A stretch of DNA of 35,095 nucleotides from positions 1 through 35,095 of the forward strand of contig JAGQMS010000004.1 in assembly GCA_020428535.1 (NCBI GenBank), given 5' to 3'. Of the stretch, positions 6,212 to 12,628 are shown piece by piece. The translations under genes and the position numbers were made by a program. The notes under the pieces are model-generated. The model saw only the letters and a list, made by a program, of their open reading frames with translations, made no database searches and was not told the origin of the DNA. This stretch comes from Candidatus Saccharimonadota bacterium. GTDB lineage: Bacteria > Patescibacteriota > Saccharimonadia > Saccharimonadales > JAGQMS01. Each line of letters opens with the position of its first letter. Position 1 is the first letter of the stretch.

Positions 6212-6583
6212 CTACTTCTCTCCTTTCTCTTTATTTATTATCTGTAATCTACTCAACATTTTTTCGACCTCTGTACATATTCCCATCAAATCTCCAAGAG
6301 TATCTTTAGACAAATATCCTACGCCAAAACAAATTAGTAATTGATTTTCCACCTCAGTGAGAGATCCGTGTGCGATTGAATAAAACTGGTCTTTTTCTTT
6401 AACACTTTTTCTTCCAAAACCCTCTGCAATATTTGAGCAAATAGATACACTCGCCCGTCTAAGTTGATTTGTAATACCAAACTTCTCTGTATCTGGAAAA
6501 TCCATGGTGACCTTATAAATCGACAACGTGAGATCGTACGCTTTGCGCCACACATTTAAGTCTTTAAAACTTCTTGCTCCCAT
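6212..6583 (-). CDS. Four-helix-bundle protein (23S rRNA intervening-sequence / Avd-like family)
   Basis: The 123-residue, all-helical protein has clear family signatures: FKDLNVWRKAYDLTLSIYK at the N-terminus, QLRRASVSICSNIAEGFGR in the middle and FYSIAHGSLTEVENQLL later. This family is encoded by intervening sequences in 23S rRNA of Leptospira and others, and its fold is shared with the Avd protein of diversity-generating retroelements. Its molecular role is unsettled. Here it lies between ssb and efp rather than in rRNA. Both gene ends run into the flanking inverted repeats: the ATG overlaps the right repeat and the stop lies in a hairpin. Codon use resembles its neighbours. Confidence 0.85.
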   Translation of the reverse strand: MGARSFKDLNVWRKAYDLTLSIYKVTMDFPDTEKFGITNQLRRASVSICSNIAEGFGRKSVKEKDQFYSIAHGSLTEVENQLLICFGVGYLSKDTLGDLMGICTEVEKMLSRLQIINKEKGEK

Positions 6584-6615: not shown

Positions 6616-7059
6616 CTAAAAAGGAATTTCAGATAGATCAATTGGTTCGTCAGAAATATCTTCAATCACTACATCTTTAGAGGGTGCTTTTGACGGCGAA
6701 GAATCATTATTTTCTCCACCTCCGCCACTTGGGCTACCTAGGAATGTAACGTCTTGAGCCAAAACTTCAACCTTGCTTCGTTTTTGGCCATCTTGCTCCC
6801 ATGACCTGCTCTGAATTCGGCCGTTCACTAAAACTTGTTTTCCTTTTTGGCAATATTGAGCAACTCGTTCTGCAAGCGGCCCCCAAGAAACTATGTCAAC
6901 ATAGTCAGTAGCTTCTTTCCACTCACCAGATGAATCTTTGTATGAGCGGTTCAGCGCCAAACTGAATTGACACACACTTTGCCCGCTTGGGATCGCCTTC
7001 AACTCAGGATCTCTGGTTAAGTTACCCATTAAAATGACTTGGTTAAATGACCTCGCCAT
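6616..7059 (-). CDS. ssb: Single-stranded DNA-binding protein
   Basis: SSB coats single-stranded DNA during replication and repair. The OB-fold domain covers about residues 1-110, with signatures NQVILMGNLTRDPELKAIP, FSLALNR and VNGRIQSRSWEQDGQKRSKV. A Gly/Ser/Asn linker leads to the acidic C-terminal tip DLSEIPF, which recruits partner proteins as DDDIPF does in E. coli. The start has a strong Shine-Dalgarno sequence (AAGGAGG, 6 bases upstream). A perfect 14-bp palindrome lies just above it. In many bacteria ssb lies between rpsF and rpsR; here a plus-strand gene separates it from that pair. Confidence 0.95.
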   Translation of the reverse strand: MARSFNQVILMGNLTRDPELKAIPSGQSVCQFSLALNRSYKDSSGEWKEATDYVDIVSWGPLAERVAQYCQKGKQVLVNGRIQSRSWEQDGQKRSKVEVLAQDVTFLGSPSGGGGENNDSSPSKAPSKDVVIEDISDEPIDLSEIPF

Positions 7060-7075
7060 AAAATACCTCCTTAAT

Positions 7076-7089
7076 AAGACATATGTCTT
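7076..7089. promoter_or_regulatory. 14-bp perfect palindrome upstream of ssb
   Basis: AAGACATATGTCTT reads identically on both strands. It lies 17 bases above the ssb ATG, immediately before the Shine-Dalgarno sequence. It could be an operator for a dimeric repressor or a small mRNA hairpin. No binding protein can be named. Confidence 0.35.
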
Positions 7090-7147
7090 GTGGTTTGTTG
7101 ATATTTATACTTTAGCAAATATGGCTTTATGATTCCACATAAGTATA

Positions 7148-7176
7148 TTGCTTCTTATGCTTTTTTATGCTATAAT
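7148..7176 (+). promoter_or_regulatory. Promoter of the 7192 gene
   Basis: -35 TTGCTT (7148-7153) and -10 TATAAT (7171-7176) have 17-bp spacing, and TATGC before the -10 gives an extended TG. The predicted start near 7183 leaves an 8-9 base leader without a Shine-Dalgarno sequence. Confidence 0.65.
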
Positions 7177-7191
7177 AAGAATTATTAGTAT

Positions 7192-8379
7192 ATGTATAAT
7201 AACCCTGAGATAAAGAAACCAAAAGCCAGCCCAGTTATTGCGCCTGGGATAATAAATGGAGATACTGACTCCAATGATAAAATTCCTGAGCAAATAGTTG
7301 AAAAGAATATCCGAGGCTGGAAAGATGGTGTGCTGGATTCTCCTCAAATGACCACAGAATTGATGACAGGGATAATAGAGTTGCCTGAGTGGCTGGGTGG
7401 TGAGCAAATTGAGGCTGAAGCTTTCGATAGAACTCCTGCCCAAGAAAGAGTAATTTTATATCTCCTGGGTATCGATGAAGTAAAAGATGAAGCTCTTGAT
7501 GAGGCCTCGAAAGGGCCAAAGAATGATGGAGAGGGTCTACCATTAGACCAAAAACTAATGTTGGAGAAGCCTTCGCGAAGGATGAAGCTAATTATGCACG
7601 AACTTCATCCAAATACTAGAGAAATTGTAGGCTATGAGATAGCTGCAGTTCTCAGAGCGCTAGAGCCAGTGTATGAATTATTTAGAAATAGCAATACGAA
7701 CAACAACGAAGAAGTCTCAATATTTTTAAAACGTTACGAGAGTATTAGTAAAATGCTGGATGCCAAACTACAAATGCGTCACAGGAAGCAAGATCATGCT
7801 GAAGCACTAAGAAGACGAAATGATCGAAGGTCCACGCTGATCGATCCGCTCAAAGGAAAGATACCCATCCCTCCTTATTTTGGTAGTTCCACTGGTTATT
7901 TGGATAATCGACCAGAAAGTCCATATCATAGGAAACTACGAAGACAAAGGGACCTCGATAGAGAAAAGAAAGTATTAGAGAAACAAGAAGCTTTATTTGC
8001 TATGGAGAATCCCCCTATGCATTTAGAGATCCTCAAATGTTTGCTTGAGGGAAATATGCCAAATATAAATGACCAACGGGGAGCTATTGCAGCATTAGAT
8101 GCCATAGCAATGAGATACGATTATATTTGCCCAGGTCACGAAATAGCGGATAGTCTACTTTGCAGAGTAAGGGATACTGCAAGCTGGTTGCTGTCATTCA
8201 AATCGTTAGTTTCGAGCTCAGACACAGGTTCCGGTGCATACAGAGCTGCAGTTGAGTCACGAATGATGAGGGGTACCAGGGTTCGGCCAAGGCACACTAC
8301 TGGCGACCCACCACCAGAATCACCAGCTGAGAGAAAGATGACACCAGTCGTCCCTATAGATAATGAAATCGTAGACTAA
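7192..8379 (+). CDS. Soluble protein of unknown function
   Basis: I do not recognise this 395-residue protein. It has no membrane helix or signal peptide. A Pro/Asp-rich N-terminus (about 1-60) is followed by mainly helical segments, including a very basic stretch ([20 protein letters not shown]) and a charged coiled-coil-like helix ([20 protein letters not shown]). The tail is low in complexity and Pro-rich ([18 protein letters not shown]). Basic patches could bind nucleic acid, but that is a guess. It is transcribed against its neighbours from a good promoter. Its TAA shares four bases (CTAA) with the TAG of rpsR. It splits the usual ssb/rpsF/rpsR neighbourhood. Confidence 0.7.
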
Positions 8380-8582
8380 TTGTTTGCTACGAACGGCAGT
8401 AGTGCGATGTGACGAGCGCGCTTAATTGCTTTTGCTAAGCGTCGCTGTTGCATTTCAGTCAAGCCAGTTCGCTTGCGAACTTCGATTTGACCATATTGGT
8501 TTACAAATCTTTGCAAAGTTTTGACATCTTTATAGTCAAAGAATACTGAACCGGTACTTGCTCGTGTGATCTTCTTTGCCAT
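8376..8582 (-). CDS. rpsR: 30S ribosomal protein S18
   Basis: S18 is a small-subunit platform protein that pairs with S6. The sequence [20 protein letters not shown] then [29 protein letters not shown] is diagnostic. At 68 residues it is slightly short, with a reduced N-terminus, and no zinc-binding cysteines are present. It starts 2 bases after the rpsF stop, so the two are translated together from the promoter at 9023-9051. Its stop overlaps the stop of the convergent 7192 gene by four bases. Confidence 0.95.
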
Positions 8583-8584
8583 GA

Positions 8585-8956
8585 TTATTTCTCCTCCTCT
8601 TCAGTCTCTTCTTTCTTTTCTTCCTGGACTTTGCGCTTTGCTTTGAAAGCTGCTGCTTTTGCTTCAGCACGTTCGTCTTCTTTAACGATCAAGAAGCGAA
8701 TTACTTCATCTGTAATATTTAAAGTAGCTTCAATTTTTTGAACTGAAGTAGACTCAACATCAAAAGTATAGAAAACATACACAGCGTGTTCATGACCCTT
8801 GACCGGATACGCAGTCTTTCGTTTGCCCCAGTTTTCGGTATCGGTCACTACCCCACCATTGTCGGTGATAACCTTTGTTACTTTTGCTTCAGATTTTTCT
8901 AGATCTATTTCAAGATCAGGGTGATATAGCACCGCTAATTCGTAGGTACTTTTCAT
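8585..8956 (-). CDS. rpsF: 30S ribosomal protein S6
   Basis: S6 binds the 16S rRNA platform with S18. [22 protein letters not shown], then [20 protein letters not shown] and [10 protein letters not shown] are family signatures (each shown in part). The C-terminal 25 residues are Lys/Glu-rich ([19 protein letters not shown]), an acidic tail reminiscent of the Glu tails added by RimK in other bacteria but encoded here. The start has a GAGGAA Shine-Dalgarno sequence. The leader of about 60 nt contains a small GGG/CCC hairpin that might serve S6:S18 feedback, although I cannot match it to the known S6:S18 motif. Confidence 0.95.
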
Positions 8957-9022: not shown

Positions 9023-9051
9023 ATTTTAGAGCATATCACCCCTGTTGTCAA
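9023..9051 (-). promoter_or_regulatory. Promoter of rpsF-rpsR
   Basis: Minus strand: perfect -35 TTGACA (9046-9051), 17 bp, -10 TAAAAT (9023-9028). Predicted start near 9016, leaving a leader of about 60 nt. It is divergent from, and 7 bp away from, the promoter of the large RNA. Confidence 0.8.
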
Positions 9052-9058
9052 GACATAT

Positions 9059-9087
9059 TTGCAAACATGGCTCATTTAGTGTAAAAT
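9059..9087 (+). promoter_or_regulatory. Promoter of the large structured RNA
   Basis: -35 TTGCAA (9059-9064), 17 bp, -10 TAAAAT (9082-9087). Transcription would begin near 9094, just before the first hairpin. Confidence 0.7.
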
Positions 9088-9093
9088 CTGCAT

Positions 9094-9668
9094 ATTCCAT
9101 TCAAGGTTGAGCGCAAGCTCCCTAGAAGTTGGATGAGGTGTTAACAAGAAGTTGAATACATAACGTTCAGTAGTTATCTTCCGCCATAGAATGTGGTCAA
9201 AGACAACTACTGAACGCGTCGTAAACACACCCTGGGCACGGCTCGCGAGGTGGATCAGGTGACATACGACGATAGCCGGCGAGAGTCGGTAAGGATGCTT
9301 GTGGTGAGAGGTGGGTCCGAAACTGTCTCAATGCATCCACCCCCTCCGAAGGCAACTTCAGAGGGGGACCACCGCTTCTGCTTGTGGCCTTCAAAGCTAC
9401 GAGCTCATGCCAGCAGGGTGAGATTCGCCTCCTGCCTCCTAGAAGAGGTTAGAACCTCAGCTCAACCCTGCTGGCACCTTCTCTTCGTGCAGTAATGCAT
9501 GAAGAATACATCTCCCGGGTCCCGCCCCCGGGAGAAATGCACAGGGCGGGATCCGCCGCCCGTGTCTGTGCCGGGTGCCCGGGGGAAACCCCGGGCCACC
9601 TAGCACACAATCAACTTCTCTAATACACCAATAAGCCCCGTTGAGCTTTCGCTCCGGGGCTTTTTGCA
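9094..9668 (+). ncRNA. Large ornate structured RNA, unassigned class
   Basis: This 750-base gene-free stretch has a promoter, dense stems and an intrinsic terminator, and it is far richer in G+C than its surroundings. Visible helices: a 5' hairpin with a GCAA tetraloop (9105-9135); a long-range enclosing helix, 9137-9141 with 9625-9629 and 9147-9155 with 9611-9619 (AGAAGTTGA/TCAACTTCT); 9164-9175 with 9205-9216 (12 perfect pairs); 9217-9223 with 9265-9271; 9276-9289 with a GAGA loop; 9293-9298 with 9333-9338; 9340-9346 with 9361-9367; 9409-9419 with 9465-9475 (11 pairs); 9482-9490 with 9497-9505; 9512-9519 with 9527-9534; 9544-9549 with 9556-9561; 9568-9608 ending in a CCCGGGG-GAAA-CCCCGGG hairpin. 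RNase P, tmRNA, SRP and 6S signatures are absent. Open frames across it look spurious. Confidence 0.75.
9633..9665 (+). terminator. Intrinsic terminator of the large RNA
   Basis: AAGCCCCG (9633-9640) pairs with CGGGGCTT (9655-9662). An inner GAGC/GCTC stem closes a TTTC loop, and the T-run is at 9661-9665. On the other strand it could weakly terminate the ftsK operon. Confidence 0.85.
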
Positions 9669-9709: not shown

Positions 9710-10372
9710 CTATGAATAGCTAGTCATGTCAATTTCAAGTTCATCAAGCGCATCGTGTATTTCAGACATCTGCTGAGGCGTGAGCATATCAACTCCAGAA
9801 GAAGTACCAACCTGGGAATGATAGTAAGCTATAGCTTCAGGAACATTAAAATCTCCAACTTGAGAATGCTGGATACTATCTAGGCCGCTTTTTGTAAGGA
9901 TTAGCGATGGCATTTCAGGGACTAACAGCACCATATACATTTTCTCTAATACATCTTCGGTTTCTTCTTTAGGGTGCATATAGAGCCATACACCCACTGT
10001 GCCTTCATTCTTAACGATGTTGTTAATCTCTAAAATCTGCAGTTCATCACCATCTCCCACCCCACTAATAACGAATCCCGGGGAAAATGTCTCGATATGC
10101 CACTCCGGGCCTTCTACAATATCCTCAATATCTTCTAATATATTACTGTGAGCACCTTGATTTGCCAGTGAGTCCTGGAATTCATCAAGATGCTGTCTCA
10201 TTTCATCAGCCTTTCGAACTGCATTAGTGAAACACAGCATACTCATCATAGCCCTGGCCTGTTCGTAACTTAAAGGTACTTGGTCAGCTCCTAAGTTGGG
10301 CAAATACTTTGAAACAATACTTATTTCTGCAGCCTCATCATCCCCACCCAGAGGCTTAGATTCATGAGTCAT
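9710..10372 (-). CDS. Acidic soluble protein downstream of ftsK, unknown
   Basis: The 220-residue, acidic protein has no membrane segment. A helical N-terminal half (QARAMMSMLCFTNAVRKADE, QHLDEFQDSLANQG) precedes a probable beta-rich part (FSPGFVISGVGDGDELQILE, then GVWLYMHPKEETEDVLEKMY). No family is recognised. It begins 6 bases after the ftsK stop, so it is almost certainly co-transcribed with ftsK. A link to chromosome segregation or division is only an operon-based guess. Its transcript converges on the large RNA. Confidence 0.7.
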   Translation of the reverse strand: MTHESKPLGGDDEAAEISIVSKYLPNLGADQVPLSYEQARAMMSMLCFTNAVRKADEMRQHLDEFQDSLANQGAHSNILEDIEDIVEGPEWHIETFSPGFVISGVGDGDELQILEINNIVKNEGTVGVWLYMHPKEETEDVLEKMYMVLLVPEMPSLILTKSGLDSIQHSQVGDFNVPEAIAYYHSQVGTSSGVDMLTPQQMSEIHDALDELEIDMTSYS

Positions 10373-10378
10373 TGCTTG

Positions 10379-12628
10379 CTACGCCTCATCTGGCATGTCG
10401 TCGTAGACTTCGCCAGTCGAATCAGAGCCACCGAACACATCATCCATACTCGAGACCAATACGTCTCTTGGTTTTGAGCCGTCTGCCGGACCAACGATCC
10501 CACGCTCCTCCATCTCTTCGATAATTCTGGCAGCACGTGAGTAGCCGATTCGGAGTCTACGCTGAAGATAGCTCGTCGATGCCTTACCACCTTCAATTAC
10601 GCAGCGTACTGCGTCACGGAACATGTCTTCATCTGCATCCAAGCCCGCCCTGTCATGTCCACCATCGACAACAAGACCACCCTTGCCGTTAAATTGCACT
10701 GGCTGGCTAACAACTTCGTCGTCATATTGTGGCGGTCTTTGATCACGCAAGAAATCACATACTTTTCCTGTTTCATCATCTGAAATAAAGGCACCCTGGA
10801 CACGAATCGGCTTAGGCATTTCGCTTGTGACATAGAGCATGTCTCCCATTCCTAGAAGTTTTTCAGCACCCTGCCCATCAATGATAGTTCGAGAGTCCAC
10901 CTGGCTAGCAACCGTGAATGCTATTCGAGCTGGGATATTGGCCTTAATCAGACCGGTAATAACGTCAACCGATGGCCGCTGAGTTGCTAGAACTAAGTGA
11001 ATCCCGGCAGCGCGCGCTTTTTGGGCAATGCGTACTATCAAGGCTTCTACATCACGAGCAGCCATCATCATAAGATCGGCAAGCTCGTCGATTACTATCA
11101 CAATATATGGCATTTTTTCATCTTGAGTTATAAGGTTATATTCGGCAATATTGCGCTTACCAACCTCTGCAAAAGTTCTCAATCGACGCTCCATTTCAGC
11201 TACCGCCCACTTCAAAGCAGAGATACATTTTTCTGGCTCAGTAATAACTGGAGTCAACAAATGAGGAATATCATTATAAGGAGTGAACTCAACTTGTTTT
11301 GGGTCGACAAGAATTAATTTTAGTTGGCTAGGGCTATTTTTGTAGACTAAACTAGTTAACAAAGTGTTCATCATTGCGGACTTACCAGAACCTGTTTGAC
11401 CAGCAATAAGTAGATGGGGCATCTTAGAGAGGTTACCCACAACTGCCGTCCCAGCAATGTCTTTGCCGATAGCAAAACCAATAGGATCCTTATTATCTCG
11501 CCAATCACGACTCATCAAAACACTAGAAGCTCGAACAAGTGCAGGCCGTATATTTGGCACTTCAATTCCAACAGCTTTTTTACCAGGAATGGGTGCTTCG
11601 ATTCTAAGGCTTTGGGCACCTAGGTCAAGTGCGATATTACTTTCTAGAGCAGTAATTTTTGTCAGCCTAACACCCGTTGGTGGCTTCAAAGTGAATTGTG
11701 TAACTCTCGGCCCAACATTTGCCCCCTCCATCTCTACTTCTATATTGAAATGAGCTAAAGTTTGTTGAATTATGTCGGCATTCCCCTGCACATCACCAGC
11801 ATCAGCTTTGTCTTGCTTTTGGTTTAGCAAATCCATGCCCGGCAACTTCCAATTTGGATCGTCGGCAATAGTTAATGCTTCGTGGCTTTCATGAATTGTT
11901 AGCTCTTTAGCTGTATTTTTTAAAGAGCCATGGCGAATGGTTAATTCTTCCTTGGTTTGCTCCTGCTCGCCCGATTCACCTTTTTTGTGATGGATAATAG
12001 GCACAGCTTCATTGACAGCCAACGCATGAGCTTTGTGCTTTAGCGCAGCTAGATCTTCGTTTTCTTCTTCCTTCTTCTTGAATAATTTCTTTATCACGTT
12101 GAAAAGCCAAACAAAAAACTTTTTCGGAGTGACGCTAAATGAGAACAGCAATGAAACGAACATTAGAACTATCAACAAAACAAAGCCCGTAGTGCTATCC
12201 AAAAAACCTAGGAGCAAAGACGAAATAAAGTGACCGATCTGGCCTCCATACAGACCCTCAGCAGCCGCTTGAGATGCTTCTGAGCGATCAACAAAAATGT
12301 GCAAGATTCCGGCGAGGAGAGCTGGTGTCATCAACGAACTAATTAATTTCCCGAAAGGAACGGTATTGCCTTCTGTGCGAAATTTCATAATTGCGATATA
12401 ACCGAGAGTAAACGGCAAAAAGTACGCAGCCATACCGACAAGCCAGCTGGCTTTTTCGAAGAACCATTGTGGGAAAGCTCCGCCTGTTCCTAATCCACCG
12501 AGCATGAGAAATATTGCTAAGACAATTAGAAGGAATGCATAAACCTGCTTCCAAAATGGCGAAACCTTTTTTGGCTCGTCGCTACCCTTCTTACTTTTTG
12601 GCGGTCGCCCGCGTCGTTTTTTTGCCAT
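10379..12628 (-). CDS. ftsK: DNA translocase FtsK/SpoIIIE
   Basis: FtsK pumps chromosomal DNA through the closing division septum. A Lys/Arg-rich N-terminus (1-22) precedes four hydrophobic helices between about residues 27 and 168. A charged linker follows, then the motor: Walker A GQTGSGKS at 410-417 and Walker B IVIVIDELADL at about 509-519. The signature RPSVDVITGLIKANIPARIA and the C-terminal gamma winged helix (about 660-735; YLQRRLRIGYSRAARIIEEM) that reads KOPS-type sequences are also present. Length 749 is typical of the short SpoIIIE form. It has its own promoter and a leader of about 46 nt. Confidence 0.95.
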   Translation of the reverse strand: MAKKRRGRPPKSKKGSDEPKKVSPFWKQVYAFLLIVLAIFLMLGGLGTGGAFPQWFFEKASWLVGMAAYFLPFTLGYIAIMKFRTEGNTVPFGKLISSLMTPALLAGILHIFVDRSEASQAAAEGLYGGQIGHFISSLLLGFLDSTTGFVLLIVLMFVSLLFSFSVTPKKFFVWLFNVIKKLFKKKEEENEDLAALKHKAHALAVNEAVPIIHHKKGESGEQEQTKEELTIRHGSLKNTAKELTIHESHEALTIADDPNWKLPGMDLLNQKQDKADAGDVQGNADIIQQTLAHFNIEVEMEGANVGPRVTQFTLKPPTGVRLTKITALESNIALDLGAQSLRIEAPIPGKKAVGIEVPNIRPALVRASSVLMSRDWRDNKDPIGFAIGKDIAGTAVVGNLSKMPHLLIAGQTGSGKSAMMNTLLTSLVYKNSPSQLKLILVDPKQVEFTPYNDIPHLLTPVITEPEKCISALKWAVAEMERRLRTFAEVGKRNIAEYNLITQDEKMPYIVIVIDELADLMMMAARDVEALIVRIAQKARAAGIHLVLATQRPSVDVITGLIKANIPARIAFTVASQVDSRTIIDGQGAEKLLGMGDMLYVTSEMPKPIRVQGAFISDDETGKVCDFLRDQRPPQYDDEVVSQPVQFNGKGGLVVDGGHDRAGLDADEDMFRDAVRCVIEGGKASTSYLQRRLRIGYSRAARIIEEMEERGIVGPADGSKPRDVLVSSMDDVFGGSDSTGEVYDDMPDEA

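Follow-up and report, generated by a model that had tools for sequence, protein, structure and literature searches.

A structured RNA gene of about 575 nt, predicted as a ring of 11 hairpins, between rpsF and ftsK in a Candidatus Saccharibacteria genome

Introduction

Very few large structured RNAs of unknown function have been described in bacteria, and those that have been solved were surprises. Long RNAs such as tmRNA and RNase P RNA have their ends joined via a long-range helix. ROOL, a stand-alone RNA with many helices and no known function, measures 659 nt in the solved example, and GOLLD is likewise a large ornate non-coding RNA (PMC12286853). OLE has an intricate fold of about 600 nt (PMC9723947), and symmetric loops self-kiss in both OLE and GOLLD (PMC12286853). 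The raiA-motif RNA (ModT) was solved as a monomer (PMC12286853) and is found in >2,500 species (PMC11706538).

Here, we describe positions 9094 to 9668 of the window (the whole 35,095-nt stretch of DNA that was analysed), which almost certainly hold a real structured RNA gene. The contig that carries the locus is 59 kb long and belongs to a genome of 783 kb (87% complete), whose matching relatives by rpsF-based synteny are Candidatus Saccharibacteria. A first-pass annotation, made from the sequence alone, had put the RNA in the range of OLE, ROOL and GOLLD. Its size and intricacy agree with that placement, and the likeness ends there: none of the three models matched, simple hairpins in a ring make up the predicted fold, and loop-loop complementarity is not in excess. 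As in ROOL, the RNA is stand-alone, of a similar size class and rich in helices, but ROOL is set in a prophage or tRNA island, whereas the window contains no tRNA and the neighbours are housekeeping genes. The comparison with OLE differs in the host (Saccharibacteria here, extremophilic Gram-positives there), and that with GOLLD, also large, intricate and non-coding, in the single multi-hairpin junction predicted here. With the raiA-motif RNA it shares a stand-alone, structured character, but it has no Rfam match and is an orphan, in contrast to the widespread raiA-motif RNA. The ends are predicted to be tied by a long-range helix, as in tmRNA and RNase P RNA; unlike tmRNA, there is no tRNA-like domain. 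The RNA may function in the manner of the large ornate RNAs, yet it belongs to none of those tested.

Results

The locus comprises the following features (window coordinates, strand, description and basis).

8585-8956, - strand: rpsF (S6), divergent neighbour (gene annotation)
9023-9051, - strand: divergent rpsF promoter, TTGACA-17-TAAAAT, 11 of 12 (promoter scan)
9059-9087, + strand: sigma-70-type promoter of the RNA, TTGCAA-17-TAAAAT, predicted start near 9094 (sequence motif)
9094-9668, + strand: RNA gene, ~575 nt, 55% G+C, z = -13.7
9633-9668, + strand: intrinsic terminator, 12-bp hairpin then U5 (sequence and predicted fold)
9710-10372, - strand: 220-aa orphan ORF that converges on the RNA and lies 6 bp behind ftsK (gene annotation and profile searches)
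10379-12628, - strand: ftsK (gene annotation)

The promoter and terminator reported by the first-pass annotation are both present. The promoters of the RNA and of rpsF lie back to back on opposite strands, and 900 bp contain 4 promoter-like sites where 0.9 would be expected. For the terminator hairpin (9633-9662, followed by UUUUU), the mean predicted pair probability is 0.97; a simple scan did not list it, probably because of a 2-nt bulge in its stem. As the genes on both sides are on the opposite (-) strand, the RNA does not lead into any gene, and the 575 nt are best read as a unit of their own. Its position between rpsF and ftsK, as first annotated, is right for the interval but not for the direct neighbour, which is the 220-aa orphan ORF with ftsK behind it; searches of Pfam, PHROGs, NCBIfam, phages and viral contigs with the acidic product of this ORF gave no match. 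The housekeeping neighbours are rpsF, rpsR, ftsK, RNase J and PNPase. The stretch is non-coding: open reading frames inside it score -0.29 to -0.48 per codon (training genes of the window, +0.08 to +0.36), a codon usage unlike that of host genes. As had been noticed, it is richer in G+C than its surroundings, by 13 points (42% for the window).

Elsewhere in the window, ssb is displaced (6616-8582), with rpsF and rpsR adjacent here and rpsF-ssb-rpsR the order in most relatives. A 395-aa orphan ORF (7192-8379, + strand) lies between rpsR and ssb. Positions 6212-6583 encode a 23S rRNA IVP/Avd-like protein, homologues of which occur near rpsR/ssb in several other Saccharibacteria (loci L040, L076, L080 and L086).

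The + strand folds at -282.3 kcal/mol (dinucleotide shuffles, -195.9 +/- 6.3), and when the whole window was scanned in 575-nt steps, the largest excess stability fell in the stretch starting at 9185. Control folds with the identical script gave z = -1.3 for the host RNase P RNA and -4.1 and -4.8 for two tmRNAs of relatives. The several GNRA tetraloops first noted were counted as five, out of 13 hairpin loops (GCAA, GAGA, GCAA, GUAA and GAAA); shuffles averaged 0.2 and reached five in 0/200. The reverse strand has one; with the GNRA excess limited to the + strand, the strand is settled and RNA is favored over DNA. A structured DNA element, such as a single-strand initiation or recombination site, would account for both strands folding beyond chance; it is nevertheless highly improbable, given the RNA's own promoter and terminator, the one-sided GNRA excess and a + strand that folds far better than the reverse (z = -13.7 versus -9.8).

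The predicted fold contains 18 helices, where at least a dozen had first been read directly. Its elements outside the terminator, all on the + strand and from the predicted fold, are as follows.

9096-9133, + strand: P0, 5' hairpin, GCAA (GNRA) loop
9137-9155 with 9611-9629, + strand: P1/P2, long-range closing helix (also shuffle test)
9164-9216, + strand: H1, 22-bp hairpin including a perfect 12-bp stem (9164-9175/9205-9216)
9217-9271, + strand: H2, perfect 7-bp stem (CGUCGUA/UACGACG), interior weakly defined
9275-9290, + strand: H3, hairpin, GAGA (GNRA) loop
9293-9338, + strand: H4, GGAUGC/GCAUCC stem plus inner hairpin
9340-9367, + strand: H5, CCCCCUC/GAGGGGG hairpin, GCAA (GNRA) loop
9380-9404, + strand: H6, 9-bp hairpin, 7-nt loop
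9408-9476, + strand: H7, perfect 12-bp stem (9408-9419/9465-9476) plus inner hairpin, CUAGAA loop
9482-9505, + strand: H8, 10-bp hairpin, GUAA (GNRA) loop
9511-9535, + strand: H9, 9-bp G+C-rich hairpin, loop UCCCGCC
9539-9565, + strand: H10, hairpin, loop GAUCCG (contains the palindrome GAUC)
9567-9607, + strand: H11, 17-bp hairpin, GAAA (GNRA) loop

The closing helix exists as first drawn, as five pairs (9137-9141/9625-9629) and nine pairs (9147-9155/9611-9619) separated by a 5x5 internal loop; its duplex energy (-19.3 kcal/mol) was equalled by 0/300 shuffles. Both perfect stems, first given as 11-12 bp, have 12 bp (in H1 and H7). Inside the closing helix, H1 to H11 are predicted as 11 consecutive hairpins on a single junction, and a 12-way junction arose in 0/200 shuffles (maximum, 11). 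P0, P1, P2, H1, H3 to H9, H11 and the terminator persist when the Turner 1999, Andronescu 2007 or Langdon 2018 parameters are used; all four full parameter sets, and folds with added flanks, retain the closing helix. H2 and H10 are replaced under Turner 1999 and Andronescu 2007 by a long-range helix (9235-9256/9550-9566); the alternative nested fold with this helix was set aside, its strength being that of chance (62/300 shuffles).

Loop-loop complementarity within the RNA is not enriched: there are five runs of at least 4 nt (8.3 expected) and none of at least 5. Being below chance, it lends no sequence support to tertiary or multimer contacts, and there is nothing yet in support of ROOL- or GOLLD-like multimers, the octameric RNA cage of ROOL included. 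Self-kissing is conceivable for two palindromic loops, GAUC (9550) and CUAG (9439); nothing shows an excess over chance. Exact repeats within the RNA are GUUGAGC (9106-9112 and 9640-9646), CCUAGAAG (9120-9127 and 9437-9444) and GAAUACAU (9153-9160 and 9503-9510), and the count of short exact repeats is about that of chance. The 5' end of the RNA (9102-9112) has a complement at 9460-9470.

Eleven hairpins predicted on one junction, several with a recurring GNRA-type loop, could also describe a sponge or hairpin array that titrates an RNA-binding protein by a CsrB-like logic. We consider this unlikely, as the loops share no sequence beyond GNRA, all seven GGA triplets, a motif that a CsrB/RsmZ-type sponge would expose unpaired in many hairpin loops, are paired (0 unpaired), and CsrB-type hairpins have much shorter stems than those found here.

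Among the Rfam 15 covariance models, none exceeded its gathering cut-off anywhere in the window; the Rfam search proposed by the first-pass annotation matched no family. On the RNA itself, cmscan at E values up to 5 returned chance matches only, with no tmRNA, RNase P, SRP, 6S, ROOL, GOLLD or OLE among them, and the group I and II intron models had no match. The earlier exclusion of RNase P RNA held: the host carries a copy elsewhere (G000:C2:6256-6613, 187 bits with the covariance model).

A divergent member of a known family, above all tmRNA, is the explanation that the host genome itself invites, having no tmRNA over the Rfam cut-off when a search of 31 genomes found one in 25; the RNA is also within a factor of 1.5 of tmRNA in size. 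It is still very unlikely. At E up to 5, no known family is listed on the RNA, ARAGORN finds nothing at the locus, and the 3' end has no T arm, the closing helix being followed by the terminator. Incompleteness of the host genome (87%) may explain the missing match, and several relatives likewise have none over the cut-off; the RNase P family, for its part, is accounted for by the copy elsewhere in the host.

No homologue was detected in any of the collections searched. We ran blastn against 61 relatives and against sets of 393 order-level and 380 phylum-level genomes, in which the host is the sole member of its family; the only matches measured 17 to 36 nt. RNase P RNA, used as a DNA query for a positive control, was recovered in 45/51 genomes, with identities mostly between 68% and 79%. 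Covariance models of three segments (R1 to R3), each built from the single sequence and therefore liable to miss distant forms, recovered the window alone in 295, 295, 198 and 230 genomes. Ornate RNAs are poorly conserved in sequence (PMC12286853). Searches of phages, plasmids and E. coli gave no homologue, and five patterns searched in viral contigs gave bare pattern matches only. An 18-nt match common to three loci (L010, L076 and L078) was a single hairpin in contexts that are not related, and we took it for chance.

The region upstream of rpsF held no counterpart in 30 relatives and 39 GTDB loci. Most of about 65 Saccharibacteria loci keep the genes in the order rnj-ftsK-rpsF-ssb-rpsR, and comparison of their rpsF-ftsK intervals, which the first-pass annotation had suggested collecting, turned up no comparable RNA in gaps of about 0.1 to 2.7 kb. 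A G+C-rich stretch in one genome (G056:C4, loci L052/L063), from another Saccharibacteria family, seemed structured and was discarded because by eye it looks like a repeat-rich protein gene; this apparent gene, with 60-70% G+C, lies between ftsK and rpsF.

The variable interval and the absence of the RNA from relatives fit a selfish RNA element (or its relic), mobile or recently acquired, that inserted between ftsK and rpsF, as do the G+C content 13 points above that of the window and the adjacent orphan ORF. We hold such an origin to be improbable, if less so than the other alternatives: the RNA is single copy in the genome, with neither terminal inverted repeats nor a convincing flanking duplication, no mobile-element protein is found among the scanned genes around it, and a high G+C content is expected of any structured RNA.

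Discussion

We favor, with a probability of roughly 0.6, the reading of positions 9094 to 9668 as a non-coding RNA of about 575 nt that is independent and lineage-restricted, acts in trans and serves as a GNRA-compacted structural scaffold. The RNA would be transcribed as an independent unit from its own promoter to its own terminator. The closing helix would then tie both ends and gather the 11 hairpins into a ring-like junction, and the GNRA loops may dock into neighbouring helices to give a compact, nuclease-resistant particle. Such a particle, made of RNA only or joined by a protein partner, would act in trans as a structural scaffold and would not switch a gene lying downstream. Restriction to the lineage is suggested by the genome comparisons, and the RNA sits in the variable ftsK-rpsF interval.

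The first-pass annotation had raised the possibility of a new class of large bacterial RNA. What stands is a large stand-alone structured RNA outside every Rfam family; a second member was not found, and for that reason we do not claim a new class in the usual sense of several homologues with covarying pairs. The lack of a homologue also means no covariation, hence no proof of selection on the pairs. Belonging to no known family and having no detectable relative, the RNA may be the first example of such a class. More tentatively, the class could belong to one family of ultra-small Saccharibacteria, with the 11-hairpin ring forming an RNA-only particle or the core of an RNP unlike ROOL, GOLLD and OLE.

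A strongly folded orphan RNA of this kind lends itself to SHAPE and cryo-EM. It also shows that comparative pipelines, which depend on homologues, can overlook RNAs like it where a lineage has been thinly sampled. Saccharibacteria have genomes of ~1 Mb or less, and half a kilobase given over to a non-coding RNA implies either a real benefit to the cell or a successful parasite.
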